From IMG/VR virus record IMGVR_UViG_3300042402_001868, positions 1 through 64,000 of that record: a stretch of DNA of 64,000 bases, one strand, 5' to 3'. Positions 1,408-64,000 of the stretch are shown here, in pieces. The notes under the pieces were generated by a model. That model saw only the letters and a list, made by a program, of their open reading frames with translations, was not told the origin of the DNA and searched no databases. The first letter of the stretch is position 1, and each line of letters begins with the position of its first letter. Source of the stretch: a virus. The translations under genes were made by a program, and so were the position numbers.

Positions 1408-1415
1408 TATTTATA
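1408..1415 (-). promoter_or_regulatory. Perfect T4-type late promoter TATAAATA overlapping the gp20 stop codon
   Basis: The minus strand reads TATAAATA exactly. Its internal TAA is the stop codon of gp20, and the motif is followed by GTATC and then ATG at 1402. A T4 late transcript normally starts about 6 nt downstream, which would make the 72-residue gene nearly leaderless. The same arrangement occurs at 28996. Confidence 0.6.
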
Positions 1416-32400: not shown

Positions 32401-32935
32401 TACTTCTTACCAGAACTGGATCAAAGACACCACTGGCACAGTTACACAACCTGATGTTCCTACAATTGACGAGTTGTCAACTGCTTACCAAGGTCTACAA
32501 GATTACAAAATGATATCAGACAACATTGTGTTGAACTCTGTGAACTTCAAACCATTGTTTGGTGCCAAGGCTGCACAGCAATTGAGAGCCACAATCAAAG
32601 TGATCAAGGCACAAGGATCTACAGCAAGCACCAGCGAAATCAAGAGCAGTGTGGTGGCAGCAATGAACACCTACTTCAGTATTGACAAGTGGAACTTTGG
32701 TGACACCTTCTACTTCTCAGAACTGGCAGGATACTTGCACAGAACACTTGGCAGTATCATCAGTTCAGTGGTGCTAGTACCATTAAACAGTCAGAAGAGC
32801 TTTGGTGACTTGTATGAGATTAGATCCGAACCCAACGAAATCTTTGTGAATGCCGCAGACATAACTAATATAGAGGTGATTGAAGCATTGACCAGCACCA
32901 ATCTTAGAACAGCACCCGGCAGTGGAGTCATTTAA
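29438..32935 (+). CDS. 6: Baseplate wedge protein gp6 (long form)
   Basis: 1165 residues. The N-terminal 200 residues carry the gp6/gpJ-family signature: SFVDYLRLYYPETFNDYIES, EFIALLDIIAFMGQSLAFRT, DLNTRENYLDTAERRDSVVR and LANLVSYSPKRNTAAQG. The middle has ITLVFGDGVFSEIPVGIFRC and NRMVNGEDYNLFPYTAYNS. The C-terminus has VNFKPLFGAKAAQQLRATIK and DTFYFSELAGYLHRTLGSII. T4 gp6 has 660 residues; the extra length is mostly in the middle (~500-1000), with an Asp-rich segment (SDNDGVPDNPDFFEE) that looks like a calcium-type loop. Role: dimeric backbone of the baseplate inner ring. The stop overlaps the next ATG (TAATG). Confidence 0.95.
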   Translation: MATTTRQTAIFGVEDWKQIYQTYREADFQSYDFETLRKSFVDYLRLYYPETFNDYIESSEFIALLDIIAFMGQSLAFRTDLNTRENYLDTAERRDSVVRLANLVSYSPKRNTAAQGLLKVFNVTTTENVVDYNGVNLSNVTVDWADPTNPDWQEQFTAIINASLVDTQRVGRPGNRQTLLGVDTAEYAVNLVPGFLPVIPYTATVDGVNMPFEATTSTSAGRDYLYEPPPVPNTSFNVLFRNDQLGFSSANTGYFFMFKQGTLQNTDFNLAERTSNRTVNINVEGVNNEDRWLFELTNVGNVNREWQYVESVYTAAAEQTVLLRPIYSTTSRSNDQITLVFGDGVFSEIPVGIFRCYTRASNGLQYIINPEEMQNVTLPISYTDRNGNVQTITFTCGITQPVSNAQARETIDAIKQRAPARYYTQNRMVNGEDYNLFPYTAYNSIIKSKALNRSSIGTSRYLDLVDNTGKYSSTNTFSSDGAVWEQNILPTILFSWINRNEIADFVTNTAQPQIGQATMKQFYYSNFPRPEVNITDSATALSTWQQSTTLANETTGYFKNANGNAIPVGGSTTTVFEYIQVGSIIKFTAPTINGITYYFDRNNRLQPGVPTKPDESLEIWASPQAIIGDGYNGGLGNLSSGAGPVTLNNFVPTNAVVDSIIPVFITDLPLSLEQQMGDQIELFRNFGIGYASTEITTPQGNKIEPGTWYLITSTNLDANATWSQDYAGDTSGTNKDASWLAQFVVENQNYTVTFRGLAYNFGSVLQTRFFFYDDQLVYDSRTGTIIKDFINVLAMNTQPNDSKPLQSDIYMNIIGQPVESDGYVDDFQVLVSFRDSDNDGVPDNPDFFEEIVGPVPDIPSTGPWVFLQQTVDFDNLQRYLLVEEGVVNSDYATLDDIELVKAEWSPGQVFYAYGTYNSSGEIIVAPAFYLLSINVAGARTLVEQSGWIARSGRQNLYFQYRHNSPLTNRIDPGTTNIIDLYVVTQAYYTSYQNWIKDTTGTVTQPDVPTIDELSTAYQGLQDYKMISDNIVLNSVNFKPLFGAKAAQQLRATIKVIKAQGSTASTSEIKSSVVAAMNTYFSIDKWNFGDTFYFSELAGYLHRTLGSIISSVVLVPLNSQKSFGDLYEIRSEPNEIFVNAADITNIEVIEALTSTNLRTAPGSGVI

Positions 32936-48586: not shown

Positions 48587-50329
48587 ATGGCATATACAAT
48601 TAATCTTACTGATGGTGCAGTTTTTGCAACAATAGCAGACGGCACAATCAATACATCTAGTAGCATGACGCTAGTAGGTAAGAACTATGCTGGCTATGGT
48701 GAATTCTTAGACGAAAACTTTATCCACTTGCTAGAAAATGGTTCTAACACCACAGCACCCAGTGCTCCATTAACAGGACAACTTTGGTGGGATAAAACCA
48801 ATAACTTGCTCAAAGTTTATAACGGTTCTATCTTTAAAACTATCAGTGCTGCCACTGCCAGCAGTACAGCACCTACATCAAACGTCACTGGCGACTTGTG
48901 GTACGACACAACTAACCAACAGTTAAAAGTATACACTGGTTCAAGTTTTATTGTGGTTGGTCCTGCTTATACCAGCAGTGAAGGCACCGCCGGTGCTATT
49001 CCAGGCACAGTTAATGATTCTGGTGGCTCGCCACACTTTATTACCAGCCTGTTTGTAAATAATCAGCAAATTGCCATTGTTAGTGTTGATAGTGCATTCA
49101 CTCCTGCTGCCCCTACAAATACAAATTTTCCAACAATCTATCCAGGTATCACAGTTACCAAGAGTGCTTCTAGCACACTAGCCGGTAACGTAACCAACAC
49201 TGGCAACTTGACATTAAGTGCAGGCGGAGCAACTACTGTTAATGTAACATCAACTGGTGCCAATATTGCTGGTTACTTAACTGGCACAGGTAATATCACG
49301 GGTGGTAACCTATTGTCTGGTGGTACTGCGGTTGTCACTGGCACAATTGTTGGCGGTAATCTGGGCACAGGTGGTATCATAACTGCTACAGGTAACATCA
49401 CTGGCGGCAACATTATCACTGCAGGTTCATTCCAGTCAGCCAGCATTAGCTCGTCTGGCAACATTGATGGCGGCAACCTTCGCACAGTAGGATTGGTTAC
49501 TGCTACAGGTAACGTCACTGGCGGTAACGTTATTTCAGGCGCACTAGTACAAGGTACTAACATGAGCGCAACAGCTAACGTGCAGGGCGGAAATCTACGT
49601 ACAACCGGACTGATCAGTTCTACAGGTAATATCACAAGTTCTGGCAACGTTGATGCTGTTTACTTTATTGGTAACGGGTCTGCGCTAACAGGTATCAGTG
49701 CTGCCGTTTCTGTAACAAAGATTCAAAACGGCACATCAGAAGCCAACGTTGGCGCAAGCGGTGGTAACATCAACTTCAACATTGGTGGCACATCAAACGT
49801 CGTGGTAGTATCTGGTTCAGGTATTATTGTACAAGGATTAACAACCCCAAGTATCGCCAAATCAGGTTCAAATGCTGTGGGTAATATCGGATCGGACGTT
49901 AACTACTTCAACCAAGTGTTTGCCACTGCTACCACAGCATTATACGCTGACGTTGCAGAACGATTTGAAGCAGACGAAGTCATGGACCCAGGAACTGTGG
50001 TAGAACTTGGTGGAGCCAAAGAAATCACTAGATCTCGCACAGATTTAAGCGAAAATGTGTTCGGAGTAATAAGTACAAGACCAGCGTTCACTATGAATGG
50101 TGGTGCCGGCCAAAACGATACACACCCGCCAGTTGCAATGACTGGGCGTGTACCAGTTAAAGTCGTAGGACGAGTTACCAAAGGCGACCGATTGGTCAGT
50201 GCCGGCAATGGTATTGCCCGTGCCGCACTAGCCGGCGAACCAACCCCATTTAACGTGATCGGAAGATCATTAGTGGATAAAACAACTGATGATCTAGGCA
50301 CAGTTGAAGCCATTGTAAGCATAAATTAA
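48587..50329 (+). CDS. Tail fibre protein with GNITGGN repeats and DxAERFEADE C-terminal domain
   Basis: 580 residues. N-terminus: a small fold repeated twice in the pattern P..P..G.LW(W/Y)D.T(N/-).LKVY.GS.F (LTGQLWWDKTNNLLKVYNGS and NVTGDLWYDTTNQQLKVYTG). Middle (~200-370): beta-helix repeats of the type TGN(I/V)TGGN(L/I)(R/I)T. C-terminus: YADVAERFEADEVMDPGTVV, FGVISTRPAFTMNGG and VGRVTKGDRLVSAGNGIARA, a domain seen at the ends of phage fibres, perhaps a trimerisation or chaperone domain. Inferred: trimeric fibre that binds the host surface. The S74 chaperone motif is not present. Confidence 0.75.
   Translation: MAYTINLTDGAVFATIADGTINTSSSMTLVGKNYAGYGEFLDENFIHLLENGSNTTAPSAPLTGQLWWDKTNNLLKVYNGSIFKTISAATASSTAPTSNVTGDLWYDTTNQQLKVYTGSSFIVVGPAYTSSEGTAGAIPGTVNDSGGSPHFITSLFVNNQQIAIVSVDSAFTPAAPTNTNFPTIYPGITVTKSASSTLAGNVTNTGNLTLSAGGATTVNVTSTGANIAGYLTGTGNITGGNLLSGGTAVVTGTIVGGNLGTGGIITATGNITGGNIITAGSFQSASISSSGNIDGGNLRTVGLVTATGNVTGGNVISGALVQGTNMSATANVQGGNLRTTGLISSTGNITSSGNVDAVYFIGNGSALTGISAAVSVTKIQNGTSEANVGASGGNINFNIGGTSNVVVVSGSGIIVQGLTTPSIAKSGSNAVGNIGSDVNYFNQVFATATTALYADVAERFEADEVMDPGTVVELGGAKEITRSRTDLSENVFGVISTRPAFTMNGGAGQNDTHPPVAMTGRVPVKVVGRVTKGDRLVSAGNGIARAALAGEPTPFNVIGRSLVDKTTDDLGTVEAIVSIN
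49260..49665 (+). repeat. In-frame TGN(I/V)TGGN repeat array in the tail fibre gene
   Basis: About six degenerate units of roughly 20-23 codons, each with GN(I/V)(T/D)GGN followed by a Thr/Gly-rich turn: GTGNITGGNLLSGG, TGNITGGNIITAG, SGNIDGGNLRTVG, TGNVTGGNVISGA, TANVQGGNLRTTG, and TGNITSSGNVDA. It encodes a predicted beta-helix or triple-beta-spiral shaft. Confidence 0.75.
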
Positions 50330-50342
50330 TTAGGATAAGAAA

Positions 50343-51311
50343 ATGACATATTCAGTAGGTGGACTAATACAAGCAACAGACTATAATGGTTTTGCTAATG
50401 ACACAGGCGGCGCCAACGCCAACGCCATATGGGCAACAGGCTCCACAGATAGAGGATATGGGCAGTCGGCACTGGGTACAGTAGCCGCTACAAACACTGT
50501 TACTGCCACTCAGTGGGCCAGCTTGGTCAACACCATCAGTTCAATTGCCAGCCATCAAGGCACAACAATTACTGCCAGAACCGCACCAACTGCTGGTAAT
50601 CTTATTAATATTCTGGCAGCACTAAGCACTGACCTAACAAATTGCACTACCAACCGCGGAAATGCAGTAGCAAACGGTACACAATTTACTGGATGGACTG
50701 GTACTAACTCTAAGACTGCTACTACATCTGGTGCAAGTTGGACAATTACATTTACTAATACTGTGACATTTGCGTCAGCTGATGCCGCACGTTATTTCTT
50801 CAACGCAGGTGGCCGTATTAAAATTGACGTGGCAAAATCGTCAACTGGTAACACCGGAGATCCCGAATGGAATGACTTGGCAACTACATTGTGCGGAGAC
50901 ATTTTTATTACTGGTGGCACAGCAACTCAAACAATCGCTGGAGCATCATATACAGGTACAACCAAAGTTGGTGGTACAGGCACCCCAACCACATTGACTA
51001 CCACAACCGGTTGGTACGACTTGACTGCTGGCGCAGCCGCTACCATTGTTTACAAACAGTTTGCCGACACTGCTCCATACACAGCCAATTTTATCCAACA
51101 CTCGCTTGCAAAAGGTGCAAGTTCTAACACCTTGGTAATCACAACACTTTGGCAAAACACTGACAGCGACCCAATTACTGGTGGCACAGCTTCAAGTGGC
51201 GCAACACCTGGTACAGCCCCAACAACTATTGTAACCTATTTCCCACCAAGTTCAACATACTTGACAACTGCTGCCTGGGGCACACCCACAGTGGCAGCCA
51301 CAACAGCTTAA
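50343..51311 (+). CDS. Virion structural protein, Thr/Ala/Gly-rich (fibre or adhesin)
   Basis: 322 residues, starting TYSVGGLIQATDYNGFAND and QWASLVNTISSIASHQGT. The rest is rich in Thr, Ala and Gly (TATTSGASWTITFTNTVTFA). It has an all-beta look and ends in a Thr/Ala tail. It is the last gene before a strong terminator, separated by 13 nt from the fibre gene, with SD TAGGA. I recognise similar proteins after tail fibres in marine T4-like phages, where they are called structural. A tip or adhesin role is inferred from position only. Confidence 0.6.
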   Translation: MTYSVGGLIQATDYNGFANDTGGANANAIWATGSTDRGYGQSALGTVAATNTVTATQWASLVNTISSIASHQGTTITARTAPTAGNLINILAALSTDLTNCTTNRGNAVANGTQFTGWTGTNSKTATTSGASWTITFTNTVTFASADAARYFFNAGGRIKIDVAKSSTGNTGDPEWNDLATTLCGDIFITGGTATQTIAGASYTGTTKVGGTGTPTTLTTTTGWYDLTAGAAATIVYKQFADTAPYTANFIQHSLAKGASSNTLVITTLWQNTDSDPITGGTASSGATPGTAPTTIVTYFPPSSTYLTTAAWGTPTVAATTA

Positions 51312-51329: not shown

Positions 51330-51349
51330 AAAGGGGCAATTGCCCCTTT
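51330..51349 (+). terminator. Intrinsic terminator at the end of the structural module
   Basis: A perfect 20 bp palindrome AAAGGGGCAATTGCCCCTTT begins 18 nt after the stop at 51311 and is followed by ACTTTTATC. The GGGGC stem with T-rich flank is typical. It separates the late structural block from the accessory operon. Confidence 0.75.
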
Positions 51350-51375
51350 ACTTTTATCTAAAACTAGCGTATACT
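51347..51375 (+). promoter_or_regulatory. Putative host sigma70-type promoter of the accessory/radical SAM operon
   Basis: TTTACT (51347-51352), 17 bp, TATACT (51370-51375), then ATG 51382. Four of six and five of six bases match the sigma70 boxes, with ideal spacing. The likely start of transcription would be very close to the ATG, so the first gene may be leaderless. No SD is seen before it. Confidence 0.5.
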
Positions 51376-51381
51376 ATCACT

Positions 51382-51687
51382 ATGGATACTGATGACTTGA
51401 TTGCTCATGCACGAGCACGGTTTGATCACGTTGCCGCAAAACGTGTACTTAAAGAAAAATACGAAGCTCGTATGTTGTTTGCCTTGGCCGGAGGTATGTG
51501 GCGAGCAGGACCTGAACTACTGAATACATTGGCTACATGTCCTGACGAATCAGCTGTACTATTAGATCTGTATGAAACTCCAGTAAAGATCAATGTACGA
51601 GAACTTGAACTGGCAGCACAACAACGTTGGCAAGAGCAAATGAACGGCTGGCTTGCGGAACACGAAGAACTTAGAAAACAACGATGA
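51382..51687 (+). CDS. Conserved phage protein, unknown, first gene of the accessory operon
   Basis: 101 residues from ATG 51382 (frame open from 51340, but those codons lie in the terminator). MDTDDLIAHARARFDHVAAK, YEARMLFALAGGMWRAGPEL, LYETPVKINVRELELAAQQR and WQEQMNGW: a mostly helical small protein. I recall near-identical proteins across T4-like cyanophages and pelagiphages, without a function. The next gene starts at the ATGA of its stop codon. Confidence 0.7.
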   Translation: MDTDDLIAHARARFDHVAAKRVLKEKYEARMLFALAGGMWRAGPELLNTLATCPDESAVLLDLYETPVKINVRELELAAQQRWQEQMNGWLAEHEELRKQR

Positions 51688-52514
51688 CCCAGGGTGTGCT
51701 AATATTTGCTTTCAACAACGAGGAAACTGATTACCTTGCAATGGCCGAATGGAGTGCTGATAATATTCGTCGTCATTTAAATCTTCCTGTTAGTGTGGTT
51801 ACCAATAACAAATACACAGGTACTGCATTTGATCGTGTGATACTTGCCGATGCTGAGTCAGGCGGCACACGTTATTTCGAGGACTACAACAGCACGGTAA
51901 CCTGGCACAATGCCGGACGTGTGGATGCATATAATCTAACACCTTATGCCCAAACCATTGTGCTTGATGCAGACTATGTTGTAGCCAGCAACAACTTAAA
52001 ACGCCTGTTAAATGCATCACAAGACTTCTTGTGTCATAGAATAGCATTTGACATGGCTGGACAAACAGACATGCGTGGTCTAAACTCATTTGGCAAATAC
52101 GACATGCCCATGTGGTGGGCCACTGTAATGATGTTCCGTAAGAGCAACACTGCACAGTACATCTTTGATTCTATGCAAATGGTGCGTGACAACTGGCAGC
52201 ACTATAGAGACTTATACAACATTGATCGTGCTACATACCGCAACGACTTTGCACTCAGCATTGCTTTAGGCATTGTGAGCGGGCACACAATGAAAGTGGA
52301 TGAAATACCCTGGGCTTTAGCCAGTGTTATGCCCAACACAAAATTATTAAGGAATCTGGATCTAGATTCGTACACGATAGAATACACTGATAGTGATCAA
52401 AAACTCAAGCACATGGGCTTTGAAGGCCTGGACTTTCATGCCATGGGTAAAAAACATCTAGGAGACATTGTTGAAACCGATCGCCGAACAAGGCTACCTG
52501 ATAGTAGCAATTAA
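51684..52514 (+). CDS. Glycosyltransferase-like protein (GT-A fold, DxD)
   Basis: 276 residues. MTQGVLIFAFNNEETDYLAM with SADNIRRHLNLPVSVVTNN is a typical first strand/helix of a GT-A fold, and IVLDADYVV carries the metal-binding D95-A-D97. WWATVMMFRKS follows, resembling the acceptor side of GT8-type enzymes. Donor and acceptor unknown. It overlaps the preceding gene by 4 nt and the next by 47 nt. Confidence 0.6.
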   Translation: MTQGVLIFAFNNEETDYLAMAEWSADNIRRHLNLPVSVVTNNKYTGTAFDRVILADAESGGTRYFEDYNSTVTWHNAGRVDAYNLTPYAQTIVLDADYVVASNNLKRLLNASQDFLCHRIAFDMAGQTDMRGLNSFGKYDMPMWWATVMMFRKSNTAQYIFDSMQMVRDNWQHYRDLYNIDRATYRNDFALSIALGIVSGHTMKVDEIPWALASVMPNTKLLRNLDLDSYTIEYTDSDQKLKHMGFEGLDFHAMGKKHLGDIVETDRRTRLPDSSN

Positions 52515-53256
52515 CACTCCAGGTACCAACTATGTAGGTTGTGCCGAGACGTTGGCTAAGACCATCAAGTACTGGCATCCAGATGCTGAAATTTGCTTGT
52601 TAACCAATGCCACAGATGCTAGTAATCCGCCATTGTTTGATTATGTGCGTGAGTTTCCTTATCCAGTAGACCTGGACAACCCTTGGGCAAACGACTGGCA
52701 AATATTTAAAGCAACCCCATTTCGTGAAACAATCAAACTAGAAGCAGACATGCTGATTACTAGCCCTATTGATCACTGGTGGACCTTGTTGCGCAATCGT
52801 GATGTGGTTGTTTCAACAGGTTGCAGAGATTGGCGAGACCAGCAGTCAGTAAGCAGATACTACCGCAAGGTGTTTGATGCCAATAACTTACCAGATGTGT
52901 ACAACGCCATCACATACTGGAGACTTAGCGAAACAGCCAAGGAATTCTTTGATACTGTGCGTGTGATATTTGAGAACTGGGCAGACTATCGTAAACTCAT
53001 AAAGTTTCCCGAAGATGTACCTTCGACTGATCTAGTGTATGCTATGGCAGCCAACGTCATTGGCTCAGAACGTTGTACCATGCCGTTCGCTGGCTATCCA
53101 CAGATTGTACACATGAAACGGCACCATGCAGGTAGTCAAACTGAATCATGGTTGGATGAGTTTGTGCTTGAATACCAAAACTATCTAGCTAGAATCAATA
53201 CCATTGCGCAGTGGGGAGCCTTACACTACAGAGTCAAGGAGTGGACACATGACTGA
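52468..53256 (+). CDS. Glycosyltransferase-like protein, second copy type (EAD motif)
   Basis: 262 residues from TTG 52468, with an SD AGGAG at 52460-52464 close by; the next TTG at 52471 is possible too. It overlaps the previous gene by 47 nt. LIVAINTPGTNYVGCAETLA then IKYWHPDAEICLLTNATDA, and ETIKLEADMLITSPIDHWW with E92-A-D94 in the place of the DxD. The layout parallels the previous gene (strand, helix, CLLTN/SVVTN, DxD, WW), so the pair is probably related in fold. Function: sugar transfer, unknown substrate. Confidence 0.55.
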   Translation: MLKPIAEQGYLIVAINTPGTNYVGCAETLAKTIKYWHPDAEICLLTNATDASNPPLFDYVREFPYPVDLDNPWANDWQIFKATPFRETIKLEADMLITSPIDHWWTLLRNRDVVVSTGCRDWRDQQSVSRYYRKVFDANNLPDVYNAITYWRLSETAKEFFDTVRVIFENWADYRKLIKFPEDVPSTDLVYAMAANVIGSERCTMPFAGYPQIVHMKRHHAGSQTESWLDEFVLEYQNYLARINTIAQWGALHYRVKEWTHD

Positions 53257-53590
53257 TGAAGAATTTTGGCAAGTTCTAAGAGACATGCCCGAACCCAAGC
53301 CTGTATTCTATCGACTGTATTACAACGAACAAGGCGAGCCCTTATTCTACAGCATGGAAGATGTTCCAGGTACATACTTGACCATTGATGCAGATGCATT
53401 TACTCGTAGTGCAACCAATGTTGTGGTGCAGGATGGCCAACTGTTTGAAATTGTCAACACCACCACTGTTAAATTATACCCCGGCGATACGGGCACACCA
53501 TGCCACCCCGATGATGTGTGCATAGTAGTACCTGAAACACACGAACACCAAAGATGGAGCAAACAAAGACATGGCCTTAAACCAAATTGA
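53249..53590 (+). CDS. Conserved small phage protein, unknown
   Basis: 113 residues from ATG 53249, which overlaps the preceding stop by 8 nt. PVFYRLYYNEQGEPLFYSME, DVPGTYLTIDADAF, VVVQDGQLFEI and DTGTPCHPDDVCIVV. A beta-rich fold with two conserved Cys in PCHPDDVC. Similar proteins are widespread in marine T4-like phages without a known role. The next gene starts 20 nt before its end. It always appears with glycan-type genes here. Confidence 0.65.
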   Translation: MTDEEFWQVLRDMPEPKPVFYRLYYNEQGEPLFYSMEDVPGTYLTIDADAFTRSATNVVVQDGQLFEIVNTTTVKLYPGDTGTPCHPDDVCIVVPETHEHQRWSKQRHGLKPN

Positions 53591-54503
53591 TGTAGCAGAT
53601 CTAGACTGCATTTACTTGACTTATGATGAACCACAGAAAGAAGAATTCTGGGTAAAGATACGCAACATGGTACCCTGGGCCAAACGTGTGGATGGAGTCA
53701 AGGGATCGGATGCCGCACACAAGGCAGCCGCTGCCGCTAGCGATACAGAACGGTTTATATTGATTGACGGCGACAACATGCCCGATCCAGAGTTTTTCAA
53801 TCAAACCATAACATTTCCCACAGCAGATTATGAACAAGCTGTGTTTCGCTGGAGAGCTCGCAATCATATCAATGGACTCATGTACGGCAATGGCGGTTTG
53901 AGCTCATGGACACGTGAATTTGTCAACAACATGCGCACACACGAAGCCACAGATGGGCGCACAGAAACCGAAGTAGAGTTTTGTTTTGATCCATTGTACT
54001 GGCCCATGTACGACTGCTATTCAACAACATATCCCAACGGTGATGCATTCCACGCCTGGCGTGCCGGCTTTCGTGAAGGTGTGAAGATGTGCCTAAACAA
54101 AGGCGCCAAGCCCACAGTGGAAGACTTCAAAGAACAAGCACACCGAAAGAATCTAGAGAACTTGACCATCTGGCACAACGTGGGCACAGATGTTGAGTAT
54201 GGTGAATGGGCCATTGCCGGAGCACGACAAGGCACCTACATGACCATGCTCACAAACTGGGATCATAAACAAGTACAATGGTTTGATGCGCTAGAAGAAT
54301 TATGGGCCACAGTTAAAGATAGCCAGCCAAGACTGATCAGCAACCAACTTGGTGTTGATCTAGGCACACAGTTAGATCTACCCATGGCCATACTAGAACA
54401 AGAACAAAGTGCATTCTTCAAACGTCACTATCGTAGCAATTGGCACAACCAAGGCGTCATGGTCAGAGAAATTGATGTGATACGCCGTCAAGAAGGTTGG
54501 TAA
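53571..54503 (+). CDS. Glycosyltransferase-like protein (GT-A, DGD motif)
   Basis: 310 residues. CIYLTYDEPQKEEFWVKI, VDGVKGSDAAHKAAAAASDT and RFILIDGDNMPDPEFF with D66-G-D68 match a GT-A type nucleotide-sugar binding core. NHINGLMYGNGGLSSWTREF is conserved in proteins of this type from pelagiphages and cyanophages. The C-terminal half (FREGVKMCLNKGAKPTVEDF) is helical and without a motif. Donor and acceptor unknown. The stop TAA (54501-54503) overlaps the ATG of the first radical SAM gene by one base. Confidence 0.6.
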   Translation: MALNQIDVADLDCIYLTYDEPQKEEFWVKIRNMVPWAKRVDGVKGSDAAHKAAAAASDTERFILIDGDNMPDPEFFNQTITFPTADYEQAVFRWRARNHINGLMYGNGGLSSWTREFVNNMRTHEATDGRTETEVEFCFDPLYWPMYDCYSTTYPNGDAFHAWRAGFREGVKMCLNKGAKPTVEDFKEQAHRKNLENLTIWHNVGTDVEYGEWAIAGARQGTYMTMLTNWDHKQVQWFDALEELWATVKDSQPRLISNQLGVDLGTQLDLPMAILEQEQSAFFKRHYRSNWHNQGVMVREIDVIRRQEGW

Positions 54504-55888
54504 TGAGCAAAGGTGATCAGAGCCGATTCATGACATCGGCAGAGCAAATGAAACAGGATCTTGGTCCTGCACTATGCTTGGCAAAATGGAAACAGGTTAG
54601 TTTTCACTTGCCCACAGGACTGAACAATAGCTGTTATCACCCGCCCTTGCATCAGATCAACGCAGATGATCTTGCTCGCACAGGTGGCCTACACAACACT
54701 GCACATAAAAAACAACAGCGTGTGATGATGTTGCAAGGTGAAAAGCCCGCAGAGTGTCAGTACTGCTGGAACATGGAAAGCCTGGACAAGCTGAGTGATC
54801 GTCATTATAGATCAGGAGAACCCTGGGCAGCCGTGGACCTTGAACGCATAAAGAACTACTCGGGACAGGAAGATGATGTTGTGCCTAGTTATGTAGAAGT
54901 CAATTTCAATCATGCCTGTAATCTAAAGTGTAGCTATTGTAGTCCACAGTTTAGTTCAAGTTGGGGCGATGAAATAGAACGGCAGGGTGCTTATCCTACA
55001 TCAAAGCCGCACAATGCTCCTGAACACTTTGTGGGCAATCGTAAGCCTATTCCTGCTCGCGAAGCCAATCCTTATGTGGATGCATTTTGGGAATGGTGGC
55101 CCACGCTGTATCCACAACTAGAACACTTCCGTATGACTGGCGGCGAACCTTTAATGGACCGGAACACCTACAGAGTATTTGACTATGTGTTAGAGAATGA
55201 CAATCCCAAACTACATTTAAATGTAACATCAAACTTTTCAGTAGAAGACGCATTGTTTGAAAAGTACATGGATTATGCAAAAAAACTATGCACACCACGT
55301 ATTGAACACTTCATGCAGTATGTTAGTTTGGATTCAGGTATTGCCGCTCAGGCAGAGTACATACGCCACGGATTGGACTATGCACGTATGGCTCGTAATG
55401 TTGAAAGATTTCTTCATGAGATACCGCATCGTAACAGTCTGACATTTATCATCACCATGAACAATCTTGGTGTCACTGGATTACCGGCATTTCTAGAGTG
55501 GATATTAGAACTACGTAAAAAATATTCAACAACATATCAGCGTGTGTGGTTTGACACTCCTGTGCTTAGAGAACCTGCTTGGCAAAGCCTACAACTCTTG
55601 CCCGAAAGCTATGCTATACAACTGGAACGAGCAAGAGACTTCATGCTGGCCAACATGGTTACAGAAGAAAATTCATTGCATGGATTTAAAGACTACGAAG
55701 TACAACGACTAGAGCGTGACATTGCTTGGATGCGTGAAGGACAGAGTCAAAACTTGTCAGCGGCCAAAGCTGACTTTTATAGATTTTTCAACGAGCACGA
55801 CCGTCGTAGAGATACTAACTTCCTGAAAACGTTTCCTGAAATGCGCTCCTGGTGGGCAGAATGTGAGTACCATGCTAGGAACACATAA
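54503..55888 (+). CDS. Radical SAM protein with N-terminal Cys module, type A (1 of 6)
   Basis: 461 residues from ATG 54503, six bases after AGAAGG (SD). N-terminal module: C25 in LCLAKW, C44 in NNSCYHPPLH, C85 and C88 in ECQYCW; then the radical SAM cluster C139/C143/C146 in CNLKCSYC. MTGGEPLM is the SAM-binding GGEP strand. Known: CxxxCxxC binds a [4Fe-4S] cluster that cleaves SAM to a 5'-deoxyadenosyl radical. The N-terminal cysteines probably bind a second cluster, as in twitch/SPASM proteins but in reversed order. Substrate unknown. The C-terminal part (from about 300) is helical and conserved with the next radical SAM gene. Confidence 0.85.
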   Translation: MSKGDQSRFMTSAEQMKQDLGPALCLAKWKQVSFHLPTGLNNSCYHPPLHQINADDLARTGGLHNTAHKKQQRVMMLQGEKPAECQYCWNMESLDKLSDRHYRSGEPWAAVDLERIKNYSGQEDDVVPSYVEVNFNHACNLKCSYCSPQFSSSWGDEIERQGAYPTSKPHNAPEHFVGNRKPIPAREANPYVDAFWEWWPTLYPQLEHFRMTGGEPLMDRNTYRVFDYVLENDNPKLHLNVTSNFSVEDALFEKYMDYAKKLCTPRIEHFMQYVSLDSGIAAQAEYIRHGLDYARMARNVERFLHEIPHRNSLTFIITMNNLGVTGLPAFLEWILELRKKYSTTYQRVWFDTPVLREPAWQSLQLLPESYAIQLERARDFMLANMVTEENSLHGFKDYEVQRLERDIAWMREGQSQNLSAAKADFYRFFNEHDRRRDTNFLKTFPEMRSWWAECEYHARNT

Positions 55889-56996
55889 GATTGTTGTCGA
55901 CGAATGGTCCGAAGTGTGGGACCTGCTCAAACCCTATGCAGATGAATCGTTTTGGCAACTACCTGATTTAAATCCTGAAAACATTTACATTGTTGGCCGT
56001 TTGCTGTTAAAAGACAACTGGACAACAATAACCACCTGGGCCACAGAACATCCAGGACGAATTGTGTTTTGCAATCCAGCAGAAGGCAGCGAAACAGTGT
56101 TGCTACAGCTACGTCGGTTGCGAATTGCAGATCATGTGCGTGATGGTCGCATATTGTTAATGACATCTGGTGACCTAGAACCTGGATGGAATCATTTCAG
56201 TACAGATTGTTACTTTTCAAACATTGTTGAATACCAGGAAAACAGGTCAGCACAGATACAAGCATTGTGGGAGTACTCTGATCAACGACCCTACGAGTTT
56301 TTGTTTTTAAATGGCCGCTTACGACCGCACCGTAAATGCTTAATTGACGGTCTTCGTGAGCGCAAACTGCTGGATCATGCATTGTGGTCCAATCTAGGCA
56401 GCCAAGTAGAAATGGAATTTACATCCAAGCTCGAGCCTGACAAACAAGAGTCCATAAGACTATTGCCTCCTGATTATGAAATAGAACGTGCTGTGACACA
56501 ATTAAATACTGTGAGCACATCGGGTTTTGTCAAGCATGAGCTGTTTGGTAACACCTGGGGAGATGCCATAGTCAATCATCGTTGCTATACAGACACCTGG
56601 TTCAGTTTAGTGTCTGAAACCATATTTGATTATCCATATTCATTTAGAACAGAAAAGATCTACAAGCCCATTTTAATGGCACACCCGTTTGTGGTTGCTG
56701 CCAATTGTGGCTACTTACGAGATCTACAAAACGCAGGCTTCCAAACATTTGACAGTATCATAGATGAATCGTACGACCAAATTGATTGCCCACATGCCAG
56801 GATCAAGCGTATAATAGAAACAGTGCGTTATCTTGTGAAGGGCGGCCCCGAACATTTCTGGGAGGCCAGCCGCGCCATCTGTAAATACAATCAGCAACAT
56901 CTTGTGGAGTACAATCTCGAACAACGTGCTCGACTTCCATTACTATTAGAGCAATTTTTAAATGAACGATCTAGAATTTCGTCAACAACAACTTGA
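55872..56996 (+). CDS. Glycosyltransferase-like protein (GT10-like motif family)
   Basis: 374 residues from ATG 55872 (a GTG at 55863 would add three). The motif DTWFSLVSETIFDYPYSFRT EKIYKPILMAHPFVV..GFQTFDSIIDESYD near 240-300 matches the two paralogues at 13530 and 61182. N-terminal half: NIYIVGRLLL, PGRIVFCNPAEG and RPYEFLFLNGRLRPHRKCLI, with NGRLRPHR resembling the beginning of the second domain of GT-B enzymes. It overlaps the radical SAM genes on both sides. Probably transfers a sugar, or acts on the same glycan as them. Confidence 0.5.
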   Translation: MLGTHKIVVDEWSEVWDLLKPYADESFWQLPDLNPENIYIVGRLLLKDNWTTITTWATEHPGRIVFCNPAEGSETVLLQLRRLRIADHVRDGRILLMTSGDLEPGWNHFSTDCYFSNIVEYQENRSAQIQALWEYSDQRPYEFLFLNGRLRPHRKCLIDGLRERKLLDHALWSNLGSQVEMEFTSKLEPDKQESIRLLPPDYEIERAVTQLNTVSTSGFVKHELFGNTWGDAIVNHRCYTDTWFSLVSETIFDYPYSFRTEKIYKPILMAHPFVVAANCGYLRDLQNAGFQTFDSIIDESYDQIDCPHARIKRIIETVRYLVKGGPEHFWEASRAICKYNQQHLVEYNLEQRARLPLLLEQFLNERSRISSTTT

Positions 56997-58296
56997 CACC
57001 AAGTCAGCTAGCTTTTGTGCCGCTAAATGGTACAATGCTACCATATGGCTGGGCTCAGGGCAGACCACAAGCTGCCACCATCCTCCAGCACATCACGTTA
57101 CTGAAAAAGAAGTAATTATTAATCCTGCTGCCTTGCACAACACACGACAAAAACGTGATGACCGTGCAAAAATGCTAGCAGGCGAACGTCCAGCAGGCTG
57201 TGAATACTGCTGGAAGATTGAAGACATGGGCCGCGACGCCATCAGTGACCGTGTGTATAAATCACGAATATATCCTATAGAATCATTAAATGAAGCATTT
57301 AACACACCTGTACATGAAGATGTCAACCTACGCACCTTGGAAATTGCTTTTGATCGCACTTGTCAGCTTGCTTGCAGTTATTGTAATCCTGCATTTTCAA
57401 GCACCTGGGTCAATGACATCAAGCGAAATGGACCTTATGTCAAGCTGGAGTCAGATGGTCGTAACCACTTTACTCATGAGCATAATAGTGCTCAACTTTA
57501 TAAATTCGGTGAGGATAATCCTTATGTCAACGCCTTCTTTGAATGGTGGGAAACAGACCTCCATCGAACCTTACAAGAACTAAGAATCACAGGCGGAGAG
57601 CCACTAATGTCAGGCTACACCTGGAAGCTGATTGACTGGTTCAAATTGAATCAAGGCAAGTCCAATACAAAACTGGCTATTAACTCAAATCTCAGTTTTG
57701 AAACTGAAAAACTCCAGGAGTTTATTGATGCCATCAGCTCACTTCCACATGTGGAACTGTACACCAGCATGGAAGCCACAGGTGCATCAGCAGAGTACAT
57801 ACGTGATGGCCTGGACTATGCACAATGGCTGTCAAATGTAAATTTGTTGTTGCAGAGTAACACAGTAAAAGCACTACACGTGATGTGTACAATCAATGCT
57901 CTGTGCTTGACCACACTGCCTGCACTGCTGGATCAACTGCTGGAACTAAAACGCACATACGGCCGCGAGCGGGTGAACTTTACGTTAAATATATTGCGAT
58001 TTCCTAGCTTTCAATCAGCCTTGGTTTTACCTGACGACCTACGCAATCAATTCCGCAATGATCTGGCTACGTGGCTTGCAACCAATATCACCAATCCTTT
58101 ACTGCAAGAACACGAAGTAAATCACACGCAGAGATTAATAGACTATTTGGATGTGGTCAAAACTCCACACTCAGACACATTTGAAATGCCCAAGTTACAC
58201 AATGACTTCAGTGAATTTTACACACAGTACGATGTACGTAGAAACAAAAACTTTGAACTGACATTTCCCAAATTAAAGAAACTCTTAAACAAATGA
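56962..58296 (+). CDS. Radical SAM protein with N-terminal Cys module, type A (2 of 6)
   Basis: 444 residues. N-terminal module: C19 in FCAAKW, C38 in TSCHHPPAHH, C80 and C83 in CEYCWK; radical SAM cluster C134/C138/C141 in CQLACSYC; ITGGEPLM at the SAM site. The layout is that of the protein at 54503, so the two are paralogues. It is the only member whose first cluster Cys is followed by Gln-Leu-Ala. It overlaps the GT-like gene before (35 nt) and the next gene (4 nt). Substrate unknown. C-terminal region (TLPALLDQLLELKR) helical, as in its paralogue. Confidence 0.85.
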   Translation: MNDLEFRQQQLDTKSASFCAAKWYNATIWLGSGQTTSCHHPPAHHVTEKEVIINPAALHNTRQKRDDRAKMLAGERPAGCEYCWKIEDMGRDAISDRVYKSRIYPIESLNEAFNTPVHEDVNLRTLEIAFDRTCQLACSYCNPAFSSTWVNDIKRNGPYVKLESDGRNHFTHEHNSAQLYKFGEDNPYVNAFFEWWETDLHRTLQELRITGGEPLMSGYTWKLIDWFKLNQGKSNTKLAINSNLSFETEKLQEFIDAISSLPHVELYTSMEATGASAEYIRDGLDYAQWLSNVNLLLQSNTVKALHVMCTINALCLTTLPALLDQLLELKRTYGRERVNFTLNILRFPSFQSALVLPDDLRNQFRNDLATWLATNITNPLLQEHEVNHTQRLIDYLDVVKTPHSDTFEMPKLHNDFSEFYTQYDVRRNKNFELTFPKLKKLLNK

Positions 58297-59981
58297 CACT
58301 AGATGAACTAAAAAAACAATACGATGTTGTTGGCGTAATTGATTTATCAGCTTGGACTAACAACTACGAGAACAGTACTCAGTGGCTGCGCAAACAATGC
58401 GAAGCTGTGTACCAAGCGGCCTACGCAGAAAATCAACGCATTGTATTTGTACATTCACATGATTACTATATAAAGAACGCCCACTCGGCAGGAATCATTT
58501 TAAAGAACATACAAGTGGCATTAAATGAAACTGATATTTCAAATTACTTTGCTGTGGTTCTTAGTACAAATCCCAATATTGAACAAGAAGTAGCCTATAT
58601 CAATTCACAGAGCTCTGATCCTGTGCCTGTAAAATTTGAATACATGTTGGGAAAATTTTCTACAACAGAGTTGCCCCAGCATCCTTACAGTAGAAAAGAA
58701 CAGTATCAATATGGATCAGCTAACCCTATTAAAATCAGCTTGAACGAAGTCAGTAATCAAGACAAGTTTTTACTCAGCGAAAGCAAAAACTTCTGTATAT
58801 ACCCTTGGATTCACATGCACGCCTGGCCCACAGGCGAGGCATATCCTTGCTGCCATGCCACCCATTCACCTGTTTATGGCAACACACGCAAAGAAACTCT
58901 GTTAGATGTATGGAATGGCACACGCATGCGACAACTCAGACAAGACATGTTAAACAACACTGCCAATGAAACTTGCCGTAAGTGTCACGAGCAAGAAGAT
59001 TCAGGATTCTTTTCAGGGCGACAAAGTGCCAACAAGCATCACGGGCACCATATTGATCGTGTGCATAGAACCCAGCCCAATGGCACATTTGATGAGTTTG
59101 AAATGACTTACTGGGACATTCGTTTCAGTAATCTTTGCAATTTAAGTTGCCGCAGTTGTGGACATATTTTTAGCTCAAGCTGGTATCAAGACCAAGCCAA
59201 ATTAGCCGGCGGCGATTGGAAGCAAAAAAATCCTGTGCTTAATTATGCTGGACGTACTGAAACTGACATGTGGGAACAGTTGATTCCTCACCTGGACTAC
59301 GTAGAACAGATTTACTTTGCTGGCGGTGAGCCGTTATTAATGGAAGAACACTATCGCATCTTAGACGAGTTAGTAAAACGCAAAAGATTTGATGTACGAT
59401 TGATATATAACACAAACTTCACACATACTGATTTAAAAGGTAATAGTGTATTTGAATATTGGAAACAATTTGATAGTGTGGCAGTGGGCGCAAGTTTAGA
59501 TGCAAGTGGCGCACGTGGTGAATACATACGCAAAGGCACAGACTGGGCAGTGGTAGAACAAAACCGCAGAGACATGCTGGCAATTTGTCCAGGGGTAGAC
59601 TTTTATATTTCTCCCACACTCAGCATTATGAATGCTCTACACCTACCGGACTTTCACAGAGATTGGGTGGAAAAAGGACTGTTAAAACCACAGGATCTAA
59701 ATGTAAATATATTGCAGGATCCTGTGCAATATAGACTGGACATTGCCCCATTGGCCTACAAGCAACAGGTCAAACAAAAGTTTGAAGAACACCTGGAGTG
59801 GTTGCGGGTGCAAGATCCCTTGCACAGAGCCACAGTGGGCTTTGAGTCAGCAATCAACTACATGATGAGCACCGACAACACACACCTGATTCCTAAATTT
59901 TGGAGCACAACTGATCGATTAGATGAAATTAGACGAGAAAACATCTTGGACGTGATTCCAGAATTAACGGCATTAAAATGA
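58293..59981 (+). CDS. Radical SAM protein with extra N-terminal domain, type B (3 of 6)
   Basis: 562 residues, the longest of the set. Residues 1-160 form an extra domain (YDVVGVIDLSAWTNNYENST, RIVFVHSHDYYI, YFAVVLSTNP) with alternating strands and helices, of no family I recognise. Then the N-terminal Cys module: C168 in FCIYPW, C186/C187 in EAYPCC, C228/C231 in CRKC. The radical SAM cluster is C282/C286/C289 in CNLSCRSC, followed by FAGGEPLL. WNGTRMRQLRQDML is typical of the twitch domain before radical SAM cores. The extra domain may bring a substrate or a partner. Coupled to its neighbours by 4 nt overlaps. Confidence 0.85.
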   Translation: MTLDELKKQYDVVGVIDLSAWTNNYENSTQWLRKQCEAVYQAAYAENQRIVFVHSHDYYIKNAHSAGIILKNIQVALNETDISNYFAVVLSTNPNIEQEVAYINSQSSDPVPVKFEYMLGKFSTTELPQHPYSRKEQYQYGSANPIKISLNEVSNQDKFLLSESKNFCIYPWIHMHAWPTGEAYPCCHATHSPVYGNTRKETLLDVWNGTRMRQLRQDMLNNTANETCRKCHEQEDSGFFSGRQSANKHHGHHIDRVHRTQPNGTFDEFEMTYWDIRFSNLCNLSCRSCGHIFSSSWYQDQAKLAGGDWKQKNPVLNYAGRTETDMWEQLIPHLDYVEQIYFAGGEPLLMEEHYRILDELVKRKRFDVRLIYNTNFTHTDLKGNSVFEYWKQFDSVAVGASLDASGARGEYIRKGTDWAVVEQNRRDMLAICPGVDFYISPTLSIMNALHLPDFHRDWVEKGLLKPQDLNVNILQDPVQYRLDIAPLAYKQQVKQKFEEHLEWLRVQDPLHRATVGFESAINYMMSTDNTHLIPKFWSTTDRLDEIRRENILDVIPELTALK

Positions 59982-61192
59982 ACATACCACACGATAAATT
60001 TTGCGTTTTGCCTTGGGTCAGCTTAGAAGCCAGTCCCATTGGTACAGTACGCCCTTGTTGTTTAGCTGATGATGAAATAGTTGACAACACAGGCAACAAG
60101 TTTGAACTCAGCACAGCTAACTTTGGGGACATACAAAATAGCAATCACATGCGTGAATTGCGACAACAGTTTCTAGCAGGAGAAAAACCGCAAACATGCC
60201 GCAAGTGCTGGAATGAAGAACGTAGCAATCGCACCAGCAAACGCATGCACACACTTAACAGACTCAAACATGTGTTGCCTGAAGGTGAATGGACTGCTGA
60301 CGCTAAACCTCTAATGTTCCTGGATCTCAAGCTGGGCAATATCTGCAATTTAAAATGCCGCATTTGCGGATCCTGGTCCAGTTCTCAGTTTGCCACAGAA
60401 GAACTAAACCAATTGCGTGGCGAAGACAAAAAAGCCAGCTTTCATTATCAGATGTTAAAACAAGGTGCCTGGCCTAAAGAAAACCTATCATTCTGGGATC
60501 AAATTGATCATATGCTAACGGACATTCGTTACATTGAATTTACTGGTGGCGAACCATTCATGATTGAAGAACACTTTGACATGCTACAGGGCATTGTTGA
60601 CCGTGGTATTGCAAATCAAGTTGAAATACACTACAACACAAATGGTACACAATTCCCCGAAAAGGCTCCAGCTATTTGGAAACATTTTAAAACAGTAGAA
60701 ATAGCATTTTCAATTGATGACATAGGAGATCGCTTTGAATATCAACGCACTAATGCTGTGTGGGCGGATGTGGTGTTCAATATTGATCGTTTCCGTTTAC
60801 TCCGGGAAGACTATCCAAATATTCAACTACAGATCTGCACCACTGTGAACGTGTTTAATGTACGTTATCTAGGCGAAGTTGCTGCCTGGATAGAACGCAA
60901 CCGTAACGCATTTAACTTTGTGTACTGGAACATGATGCACGACGCCTGGTACTTCTCTATTGCCACCTTGCCAGACACAGCCAAAACAGCCATTACAGAA
61001 TACTTAGACTCAGTTGAAACCATTTACCGAGATGAATTTGATCGCATAAGAGACTTTATGAATCGTGGCGCTTCAACAGATGGTGGCATACTGCGTATGC
61101 GTGTGCGAGATCTAGATCGTAAACGTGAACAAGATTTATCAGTTGTAGAACCTGAATTTGCCGCACTGATTAACTACACCTATGCCACTTAA
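59978..61192 (+). CDS. Twitch domain-containing radical SAM protein, type B (4 of 6)
   Basis: 404 residues. N-terminal twitch-like module: C9 in FCVLPW, C27/C28 in VRPCC, C74/C77 in CRKCW, with MRELRQQFLAGEKPQTC between. Radical SAM cluster C123/C127/C130 in NICNLKCRIC; FTGGEPFM at the SAM site. SIDDIGDRFEYQRTNAVWAD conserved with the protein at 62117, to which it is close along its length. Family likely the one I recall as twitch domain-containing radical SAM proteins. Product unknown; such enzymes often modify peptides or sugars. Overlaps both neighbours (4 and 11 nt). Confidence 0.85.
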   Translation: MNIPHDKFCVLPWVSLEASPIGTVRPCCLADDEIVDNTGNKFELSTANFGDIQNSNHMRELRQQFLAGEKPQTCRKCWNEERSNRTSKRMHTLNRLKHVLPEGEWTADAKPLMFLDLKLGNICNLKCRICGSWSSSQFATEELNQLRGEDKKASFHYQMLKQGAWPKENLSFWDQIDHMLTDIRYIEFTGGEPFMIEEHFDMLQGIVDRGIANQVEIHYNTNGTQFPEKAPAIWKHFKTVEIAFSIDDIGDRFEYQRTNAVWADVVFNIDRFRLLREDYPNIQLQICTTVNVFNVRYLGEVAAWIERNRNAFNFVYWNMMHDAWYFSIATLPDTAKTAITEYLDSVETIYRDEFDRIRDFMNRGASTDGGILRMRVRDLDRKREQDLSVVEPEFAALINYTYAT

Positions 61193-62120
61193 ACTGCTGT
61201 TGCATAACAATGATCGTAATTCGTTTTCTCATGGACACATTCAGTCATTGTTGCGACAGTATTTTGACATTGTGATCTGGCAGCCAAATACCATGTACAG
61301 TCAAGATCATGTGTTGGTAGTAGATTCATTTAAACTACATCGTGTTGATCCTAATTATTGGTACATATCTTATCTCAGAGATGGATACAAAGTACTGGTA
61401 GATAATATGTGGGAAATACCAAATTTTATAAACACTCATTTCCCCAAGGATGACCCTGGTTACCACGTGATGCAAAACACCAATTGGTTTTGGTACAACG
61501 AATCCTTGATGTATACCCAACAAGGATTTGATCAATATCAGCCAAATAAAACATATGATCGCCTGGCTCTCATGCCCATGCGCATTGGTCGCGGTCACCG
61601 CCGTGATCTTGTGATTGAACTAAGTAGTGTTCTGGACAATTTAATCTGGAGTTTGAATTCACATGGCCGTCAATTGCCCGACGATTTACCACAAGACCAT
61701 CCAGACTATCAGAGACATTTCAATCCTACCTGGTATGACCGCACACATTTCAGCATAGTGGCAGAAAGTCAAATTAGCAATCCAGAAATGTTTGTTACAG
61801 AAAAAATATTCAAACCCATGGCATTTTATCATCCATTTGTTGTGATGGGACAATCGGGGATATTGAATTACCTGCACACACAAGGATTTGAAACATTTAA
61901 CAATCTATTTGATGAAAATTATGACACCATTGCAGACTATTACACTAGGTTATTGGCAGTAACAGATGCAGTTAAACGCTATGCTTGTGTGCCTTATGAT
62001 ACATTAACACAACAAAAACTCGCGCACAATCACAATCGTTTCTTTGATCAAACTTTAGTAAGTACAATGTTCGTCAGAGAAATTATTGACCCTATTAAAG
62101 AATATGTTGAATCATTATGA
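61182..62120 (+). CDS. Glycosyltransferase-like protein (GT10-like motif family)
   Basis: 312 residues. The C-terminal segment FVTEKIFKPMAFYHPFVVMG ... GFETFNNLFDENYD matches the proteins at 13530 and 55872. N-terminal half begins LKLLLHNNDRNSFSHGHIQS with HVLVVDSFKLH and WYISYLRDGYKVLVDNMWEI, as in a strand-helix fold. LALMPMRIGRGHRRDLVIEL lies mid-protein, with a Gly-Arg-Gly turn. Function: probably sugar transfer. It sits between two paralogous radical SAM genes and overlaps both. Confidence 0.5.
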   Translation: MPLKLLLHNNDRNSFSHGHIQSLLRQYFDIVIWQPNTMYSQDHVLVVDSFKLHRVDPNYWYISYLRDGYKVLVDNMWEIPNFINTHFPKDDPGYHVMQNTNWFWYNESLMYTQQGFDQYQPNKTYDRLALMPMRIGRGHRRDLVIELSSVLDNLIWSLNSHGRQLPDDLPQDHPDYQRHFNPTWYDRTHFSIVAESQISNPEMFVTEKIFKPMAFYHPFVVMGQSGILNYLHTQGFETFNNLFDENYDTIADYYTRLLAVTDAVKRYACVPYDTLTQQKLAHNHNRFFDQTLVSTMFVREIIDPIKEYVESL

Positions 62121-63337
62121 TAATACCAAGTGAAAATTTTTGCATTGTGCCCTGGTTTGGAATTGAAACCACACCTGTTGGCACAGTGAGACCGTGTTGT
62201 ATTGCCCGTGATGAAATTGTGGACGACAACGGTGTTGCATTTAATCTGCATTCAAGTACATTTGACCAGATTCTGAACAGTCAGTCCATGAAAGAACTAC
62301 GTCAACAATTCCTGGACAACAACCGTCCTGCGACGTGTAACAGTTGCTGGAATGTTGAAGTTGCTGGTCACAAGAGCAAGCGTTTACAAACCTTGGAATC
62401 TGACCTGGCAAAAAATCTTGACAACCAGTCTTATACTACAGATCCTATACCATTGAAATACATTGATCTTAAACTGGGCAACATCTGCAACTTAAAATGT
62501 CGTATATGTGGTGCATTTAGCAGTAGCCAGATAGCGTCGGAAAAGGTGGCAACATTGCCACCTGACCGTAAAAAACACAGCTACGAATACAAAATGTTAC
62601 GTGATGGGGCCTGGCCAAGAGAAAGCCCTGCGTTCTGGACCGAGTTAGAAAAAGTTCTGGGCCAAATCAAAAAGTTTGACATATCAGGCGGAGAACCGTT
62701 CTTGATCGAAGAGCACTTTGATATGTTACGCAACATGGTTGCTAAAGGATATTCGCATGACACAGAAATATATTACAACTCAAATGGCACAGTATATCCC
62801 GAGTCTGCAGAAGAAATTTGGAAAGATTTTCAGACTATTAAAATAGCTCTAAGCCTAGATGATATTGGATCCAGATATGAATATCAAAGATCCAACGGAA
62901 ATTGGGGGATGGTATTAACCAATTTGGAAAAGTTCAGACAACTGCGTTCAAGACACAGCAATATCATTCTAGAAGCATGTTGCACTGTGAGTGTTTATAC
63001 TGTGTTATATCTGGCAGAAATACTAGATTGGTTACATACGCAACAGCTAGATTATGTAAACATAAATTTTTTACATTATAATCCAGCATTGAGCGTTGCT
63101 AATTTGCCACAAGGGATCAAAGATCAAATAATACATCATTTAATCAGTGCGAACCAGACTGCAAATTATGAAGAAATCTCTGTTGTGATCGATTTCATGC
63201 GTCACGGAAACAGCAACAATGATCTATCAGCTACTCTGGAATTAATAACCCATTATGATCAACTAAGGTCAACTGATCTCAGAGATTCTTCTCCTGAGCT
63301 TGCAAAAATACTAAATTACCAGTATAATAAACAATGA
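62117..63337 (+). CDS. Twitch domain-containing radical SAM protein, type B (5 of 6)
   Basis: 406 residues. C9 in FCIVPW, C27/C28 in VRPCC, C74/C77 in CNSCW; radical SAM cluster C124/C128/C131 in NICNLKCRIC; ISGGEPFL; LSLDDIGSRYEYQRSNGNWG. A clear paralogue of the protein at 59978: the opening, the spacing of all cysteines and the DDIG segment agree, so one arose from the other by duplication. Only a GT-like gene separates them. Coupled by ATGA overlaps to the previous and next genes. Confidence 0.85.
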   Translation: MIIPSENFCIVPWFGIETTPVGTVRPCCIARDEIVDDNGVAFNLHSSTFDQILNSQSMKELRQQFLDNNRPATCNSCWNVEVAGHKSKRLQTLESDLAKNLDNQSYTTDPIPLKYIDLKLGNICNLKCRICGAFSSSQIASEKVATLPPDRKKHSYEYKMLRDGAWPRESPAFWTELEKVLGQIKKFDISGGEPFLIEEHFDMLRNMVAKGYSHDTEIYYNSNGTVYPESAEEIWKDFQTIKIALSLDDIGSRYEYQRSNGNWGMVLTNLEKFRQLRSRHSNIILEACCTVSVYTVLYLAEILDWLHTQQLDYVNINFLHYNPALSVANLPQGIKDQIIHHLISANQTANYEEISVVIDFMRHGNSNNDLSATLELITHYDQLRSTDLRDSSPELAKILNYQYNKQ

Positions 63338-64000
63338 GTGATTCTTTAAATAAACCCCTGTGTGTTTTGCCATTTATACATGGTCTAATGGAAACAACCG
63401 ATCAACTGTTGCCGTGTTGTGCGTATGACCACCGTTATGGCAAACAATATCAAGTACATGAGTTTGATACCTGGTGGGAGTCTGGACTGACCGAGATTAG
63501 ACAAGACATGCTGGCCGGGCGAAAACACGAAGGCTGCAATCGTTGTTGGAAAGAAGAAGAACAAGGAATATCAAGTTACCGCCAGCGTCAGAATGAACAC
63601 TGGGCTCAATATCAAAATATCCAACAGCCTCTACCCAAGCCTGTATTTTTAATGATGGGAATTGGAAACTATTGTAATATCAAGTGTATCATGTGCTCCC
63701 CACAAAAAAGTAGTTTATGGGCTGACGAATACGAAAAGAATCAAAAAACATTTAACAAAATTGACATACGCTTTAATAACTACAGCAACGGTGCCTGGAG
63801 TGAACCGGAAAAAATTGAACGTCTACTAGATCGTGTGGCCACCAATGTAGAGATGTTGCACTTCAGCGGTGGAGAACCACTAATTACTCCGGAGTACAAA
63901 CAAGTACTACGTTCAGTGATCAATCCCGGCAATGTAGAATTACATATCAATACCAATTTGACCATGCTTAGTGAAGACTGGATCACATTATTAAAACAGT
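63334..64000 (+). CDS. Radical SAM protein with N-terminal Cys module, type B (6 of 6), cut by window edge
   Basis: At least 222 residues from ATG 63334 (overlaps the previous stop); open to the window end. C10 in LCVLPF, C28/C29 in LLPCC, C68/C71 in CNRCW, radical SAM cluster C114/C118/C121 in YCNIKCIMC, then FSGGEPLI. TEIRQDMLAGRKHEGC is the twitch linker. It continues beyond the window, so at least one more gene may follow in the operon. Substrate unknown. Confidence 0.85.
   Translation, partial: MSDSLNKPLCVLPFIHGLMETTDQLLPCCAYDHRYGKQYQVHEFDTWWESGLTEIRQDMLAGRKHEGCNRCWKEEEQGISSYRQRQNEHWAQYQNIQQPLPKPVFLMMGIGNYCNIKCIMCSPQKSSLWADEYEKNQKTFNKIDIRFNNYSNGAWSEPEKIERLLDRVATNVEMLHFSGGEPLITPEYKQVLRSVINPGNVELHINTNLTMLSEDWITLLKQ

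Follow-up and report, generated by a model that had tools for sequence, protein, structure and literature searches.

Gene content and organization of the locus

The window, a 64,000-nucleotide stretch of viral DNA, corresponds to positions 1-64000 of a 155,922-b virus record in which no end repeats were found. A T4-type portal at 1411-3192 (Portal_T4, E 8e-105), together with a baseplate hub/tail lysozyme homologue also encoded in the record, identifies it as a T4-like phage. Since its long relatives measure 317-364 kb, the record is probably a fragment. A gene for a TctC-type tripartite tricarboxylate transporter receptor lies at 90208-91122 (9208-10122 of locus L018); Burkholderiales are rich in such genes, and its presence is a faint hint of a Burkholderiales host. 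Tail-fibre, glycosyltransferase-like and radical SAM genes follow one another through the 3′ half of the window and past its end:

32935-47784, + strand: TF, 4949-aa long tail fibre, called from position and size; heads the conserved block
48587-50329, + strand: tf1, virion structural protein, with phrog_14394 (virion structural) at the N-terminus
50343-51311, + strand: tf2, candidate glycan acceptor, 30% Ser+Thr (z 5.9)
51340-51687, + strand: fa, 115-aa conserved protein, in 109 of at least 160 loci
51684-52514, + strand: GTA1, GT-A-like, DAD motif, in 121 loci among the matches listed
52468-53256, + strand: GTA2, GT-A-like, phrog_1903 (function unknown), in 127 loci among the matches listed
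53204-53590, + strand: S128, small conserved protein, in 118 loci among the matches listed
53571-54503, + strand: GTA3, GT-A-like, DGD motif, median identity 77%
54503-55888, + strand: R1, N-terminal-twitch radical SAM, own clade (NF033640 E 4.6e-91)
55863-56996, + strand: F1, predicted GT-B-fold glycosyltransferase
56962-58296, + strand: R2, N-terminal-twitch radical SAM (NF033640 E 2.6e-90)
58293-59981, + strand: R3, N-terminal-twitch radical SAM with a ~160-aa N-terminal extension (NF033640 E 4.4e-121)
59978-61192, + strand: R4, N-terminal-twitch radical SAM (NF033640 E 1.8e-98)
61182-62120, + strand: F2, F1 paralogue, GT-B-like (F1 HMM E 1.6e-58)
62117-63337, + strand: R5, duplicate of R4 (46% identical), an NF033640 match within the R4 clade
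63334-65790 of the record, + strand, cut by the window at 64000: R6+R7, tandem double radical SAM (NF033640 E 3.3e-160)
65741-66847 of the record: U1, phage-specific protein (model pLDDT 86.7)
66947-68422 of the record: NodU-type carbamoyltransferase (PF02543 E 9e-36, PF16861 E 6e-48)

Throughout 51340-66847 each gene runs into its successor, which bears out the overlapping organization of the original prediction, and the first gap (99 b, 66848-66946) precedes the carbamoyltransferase. The cluster runs past the window, as had been foreseen: the last ORF ends at 65790 and is followed by U1 and the carbamoyltransferase.

The six CX3CX2C/GGEP proteins counted earlier are present, all on the + strand from 54503 to the window end. 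In a profile search all six exceed the curated whole-model cut-off (170 bits) of NF033640 (N_Twi_rSAM, NCBIfam), the profile of N-terminal-twitch radical SAM proteins, with scores of 303-534 bits (E 1e-90 to 1e-160; 303-405 for R1 to R5, 534 for R6+R7) that exclude chance; among 14 control bacteria and archaea, none passed this cut-off. The ORF cut by the window edge contains two NF033640 stretches, each a complete module, so the array comprises seven: R7 is the conserved half and falls in the R7 clade, and R6 is an additional module fused to it. The ATG of R1 overlaps the TAA of the preceding gene (the mechanical ORF starts at 54497), and R3 matches SPASM (PF13186) at 168-232. In an alignment of 14 modules the twitch cysteines C9, C74 and C77 are invariant and C28 is nearly so. 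Among the matches listed, the twitch pattern C...C...CX2C recurs in 594 of 595 orthologues, and CX3CX2C plus GGEP in all 595. On these cysteine patterns, the proteins are assigned an N-terminal twitch holding one predicted auxiliary Fe–S cluster.

A tree of 77 sequences resolves R1, R2, R3, R4 and R7 as distinct clades with support of at least 94%, which argues for sequential, non-redundant steps; branches are long, so the deeper joins are unsure. Outside this record R5 occurs only in locus L022 among the matches listed, and a viral scan with R5 alone, which used unconserved patterns, returned no match. Two of the seven modules, R5 and R6, are specific to this lineage as judged by sequence. 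Pfam marks 16 radical SAM places in the record. Beyond the window lie seven further NF033640 members (ORFs over the cut-off at 68424, 69689, 102371, 107464, 108660, 131352 and 142303) and four other radical SAM genes; two of each fall within 68424-73043, and the remainder are scattered to 148 kb. The record thus shows both arrangements contrasted earlier, the dedicated cluster and scattered radical SAM genes.

The interposed genes F1 and F2 form one family, recognized by a common T-E-K...K-P...P-F-V block and present in two more copies in the record, at 74032 and 75197. A confident AlphaFold model (pLDDT 92.6) gives F1 a predicted GT-B glycosyltransferase fold, with EXT1-EXT2 and SenB as top Foldseek hits; a PDB sequence search with the family found no match. 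This pair had been called GT10-like. The broad fold class is retained in the GT-B model, but the GT10 assignment was rejected, as the family matched no Pfam family, GT10 included (38 members searched). F2 varies between phages, and is the best match of 50 ORFs in related loci among the matches listed. Upstream, GTA1-3 appear GT-A-like by their DxD-type motifs, in keeping with the original description. Pfam matched only GTA3, and only weakly (7 of 31 members to Glyco_tranf_2_3, glycosyltransferase family 2, best E 0.005); GTA1, which had no Pfam match and is related to GTA2 by HMM, and GTA2 itself are classed by motifs only.

U1, for which a confident model was obtained, has nine relatives, all uncharacterised phage proteins, and no PDB relatives by sequence or by fold. 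The carbamoyltransferase has both the N- and C-terminal domains of NodU/TobZ proteins and scores under the NodU equivalog cut-off. Often found further downstream are an amidinotransferase, further GT-B enzymes, a DegT aminotransferase and an NAD epimerase. The record holds three amidinotransferase-family paralogues, at 8064-9200, 73047-74072 and 98470-99525; the second has the highest median identity (84%) among the block genes compared and matches inosamine-phosphate and Arg:Gly amidinotransferases. At 76317-79928 (14317-17928 of locus L017) lies a 1203-aa protein with nine ~65-aa repeats of W-x-P-x-P-x-x-P-P-Y-I-Y-V-F-G-N-Q, which weakly matches the GTA3 profile and is the best match of 64 ORFs in related loci among the matches listed. 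Hydropathy predicted no membrane segment in any cluster protein, so the products are probably cytosolic.

Conservation of the block and its link to tail fibres

Viral contigs were scanned with R4/R5 and with R1/R2/R8, which yielded at least 160 loci, and the genes of the record were compared by BLASTP. Deduplication by R2 sequence left 126 distinct R2-bearing loci (among the matches listed) on contigs of up to 364 kb. R1, R2, R3, R4 and R7 occur together in 116 of these 126 with a median span of 8.6 kb (again among the matches listed). As loci were picked as R2 or R4 relatives, these counts measure the constancy of the block among loci that have it and not its frequency. The gene order is TF, tf0, tf1, tf2, fa, GTA1, GTA2, S128, GTA3, R1, F1, R2, R3, R4, R7, U1, carbamoyltransferase, often continued by amidinotransferase, F3, F4 on the other strand and the 1203-aa repeat protein; among the matches listed, the core order R1, R2, R3, R4, R7 is nearly invariant. 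The dense, dedicated cluster originally proposed is thereby upheld, and the neighbourhoods are the opposite of single copies lacking conserved neighbours. Pairwise divergences of R1, R2, R3, R4, R7, GTA3, carbamoyltransferase and U1 correlate (r 0.30-0.83), the pattern of a block whose genes have mostly been passed on as a unit, with some exchange.

NF033640 matches number 5 to 21 in every one of the 38 relative records tested. Cultured phages (INPHARED set) gave no match to R2 or U1 and weak ones to R5 and R7, mainly in Vibrio phages K566/K567, which possess their own small radical SAM group. In Vibrio phage K566 (L196; 161-167 kb; seawater, oysters), three genes annotated as radical SAM lie near one another. 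The name of NF033640 refers to a domain architecture and not to a reaction; in these phages, five orthogroups sharing that architecture make up a fixed operon, one of them within a tandem double.

Fibre genes adjoin the block wherever the contig stretch extends that far (among the matches listed), and TF is matched in 22 loci as the gene before tf0 (likewise). tf1 contains GN-x-GGN repeats and 23% Ser+Thr (z 3.6). The Ser+Thr content of tf2 is kept across 99 orthologues (median 0.299), and among listed ORFs of at least 100 aa these two proteins are the richest in Ser+Thr, apart from a 108-aa ORF at 83696-84022 (+ strand) that is probably spurious. Ser/Thr-rich tail fibres without glycans are frequent.

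This constant neighbourhood, together with the repeated GN-x-GGN units of tf1, is what would be expected if the radical SAM enzymes modified amino acids in proteins, most likely the repeat-rich fibre proteins, by RiPP-like epimerisation or cross-links. SPASM/twitch radical SAM enzymes act mostly on peptides and proteins, and an aspartyl/asparaginyl hydroxylase stands beside the enzymes in a bacterial island described below. We nevertheless consider this explanation unlikely, as five separate enzymes per fibre would be unusual and the small precursor peptide envisaged earlier did not materialize: no intergenic room exists for such a gene between 51340 and 66847, and S128, the one small conserved gene, which has no Pfam match, shows no leader/variable-core pattern in its alignment.

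Fe–S supply and bacterial islands

In ten of ten relatives of 317-364 kb, a single IscU-type scaffold is encoded along with two or three matches to A-type carriers. In the two relatives inspected, each of about 345 kb, the IscU and IscA genes are neighbours with phage genes around them (G017:C1:291412-292087 and G006:C1:163553-164222). For cysteine desulfurase, these ten relatives gave no clear match, only weak partial Aminotran_5 matches; the window record, probably a fragment, shows none of these. IscU and A-type carriers alongside radical SAM genes in phages are already known (PMC5332604). That paper describes TARA_ERS488813_N000010, a T4-like viral genome of 183 kb from the environment, in which 12 radical SAM genes are accompanied by an A-type carrier. 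It shares with our phages the T4-like type, the many radical SAM genes and a phage Fe–S assembly protein; the published account gives gene counts and a general Fe–S reading (PMC5332604).

An R2 scan of genome contigs recovered four marine phage contigs binned in MAGs and ten Bdellovibrionota or unclassified MAG loci. The four phage contigs keep the block, with R7 preceding R4 where both are seen. The Bdellovibrionota islands come from MAGs, in which short contigs may be misbinned; several are chromosomal by their neighbours (L187 near obgE and rplU, L201 near ATP synthase genes), and L201 and L188 belong to the same genome. Like the phage block, the islands carry R1, R2, R3, R4 and R7 homologues in tandem, with R2-R7-R4-R3-R4-like and R1-R2-like runs in L187; unlike it, they lack tail fibres, GTA1-3, S128 and U1. 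Of the 119 genomes in the class of L194, 39 have proteins over the NF033640 cut-off, and a single bacterial genome has up to 37 matches. The amidinotransferase of L198 and the carbamoyltransferase of L199 are 32% and 31% identical to their phage counterparts, and the islands also hold an aspartyl/asparaginyl hydroxylase and a PP-loop protein. One chromosomal island of a Bdellovibrionia MAG (G050:C1:745513-774880; L197, L198) packs ~15 N-twitch matches into 30 kb with an amidinotransferase and a hydroxylase. Because the islands dispense with fibres and GTA1-3, the radical SAM chemistry needs no fibre protein, which weakens any fibre-dependent reading.

The islands resemble biosynthetic clusters, and natural products of the aminocyclitol type are built with amidinotransferase, DegT and carbamoyltransferase enzymes together with radical SAM ones; both features would suit auxiliary metabolism in which a small molecule (a cofactor, an amino sugar or an antibiotic-like compound) is made or salvaged during infection. 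The constant linkage to fibre genes and the several glycosyltransferases in phages make this quite improbable. More improbable still is the making or modification of a hypermodified DNA base: glycosyltransferases and other group transfers do serve phage DNA hypermodification, but the block sits among tail-fibre and not replication genes, and the related arrays in bacteria are chromosomal. A Tet_JBP search found no match, and its control was equally silent.

Proposed pathway and its significance

The cluster, shared by a family of large uncultivated T4-like phages, is probably a modification pathway for phage surface proteins or host sugars. Our preferred reading, put forward tentatively and at somewhat less than an even chance, is that cytosolic enzymes assemble a carbamoylated glycan on the tail fibre and modify it by radical chemistry; the fibre as target is the part we infer. 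Acting in the cytosol and, to judge from gene position, late in infection, the glycosyltransferases would put together a short glycan, with the Ser/Thr-rich tf1/tf2 or a nucleotide-linked carrier as acceptor. Its unactivated C-H positions would then be altered one after another by the radical SAM enzymes through epimerisation, deoxygenation, oxidation or cross-linking, and the carbamoyltransferase would cap the glycan, with Fe–S clusters supplied in part by phage IscU and A-type carriers.

The enzymes might instead act on the surface of the infected host, changing its lipopolysaccharide or capsule, perhaps so that other phages are kept out. Glycosyltransferases, DegT and epimerases are usual in O-antigen pathways, the Bdellovibrionota islands combine amidinotransferase and carbamoyltransferase without fibres, and the same reading was published for pelagimyophage glycosyltransferases in the same genome region (PMC7029224). 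The cluster, however, includes no flippase, polymerase, ligase or membrane protein, and it lies in a tail-fibre run whose expression is expected late, which leaves host-glycan modification rather unlikely.

Pelagimyophages carry radical SAM cassettes and glycosyltransferases in a host recognition cluster (PMC7029224), and thus share with the present block its tail-fibre-region location and mix of gene classes; their cassettes are a difference between two genomes (PMC7029224), whereas here the block is fixed over more than 100 loci. Tasman Sea viromes are enriched in radical SAM and glycosyltransferase genes (PMC7150976). Published work already covers both marine T4-like phages rich in radical SAM genes and cassettes of this kind in tail-fibre regions. 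No account of the Bdellovibrionota islands, or of five such enzymes in a fixed cluster, was found in the open-access literature, and both appear undescribed.

Five members kept over wide divergence, together with Fe–S supply proteins, indicate that the product must matter to these phages. Five dedicated radical SAM steps served by phage Fe–S carriers could point to a novel virion structure, made by an enzyme set shared with islands of predatory bacteria, a prospect we regard as doubtful. Radical SAM chemistry is within reach of few other enzymes; the block supplies a testable enzyme set and a likely target in tf1/tf2, and the bacterial islands provide a second, independent context for substrate finding. 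The cluster may also account for the abundance of radical SAM genes in some aquatic viromes.
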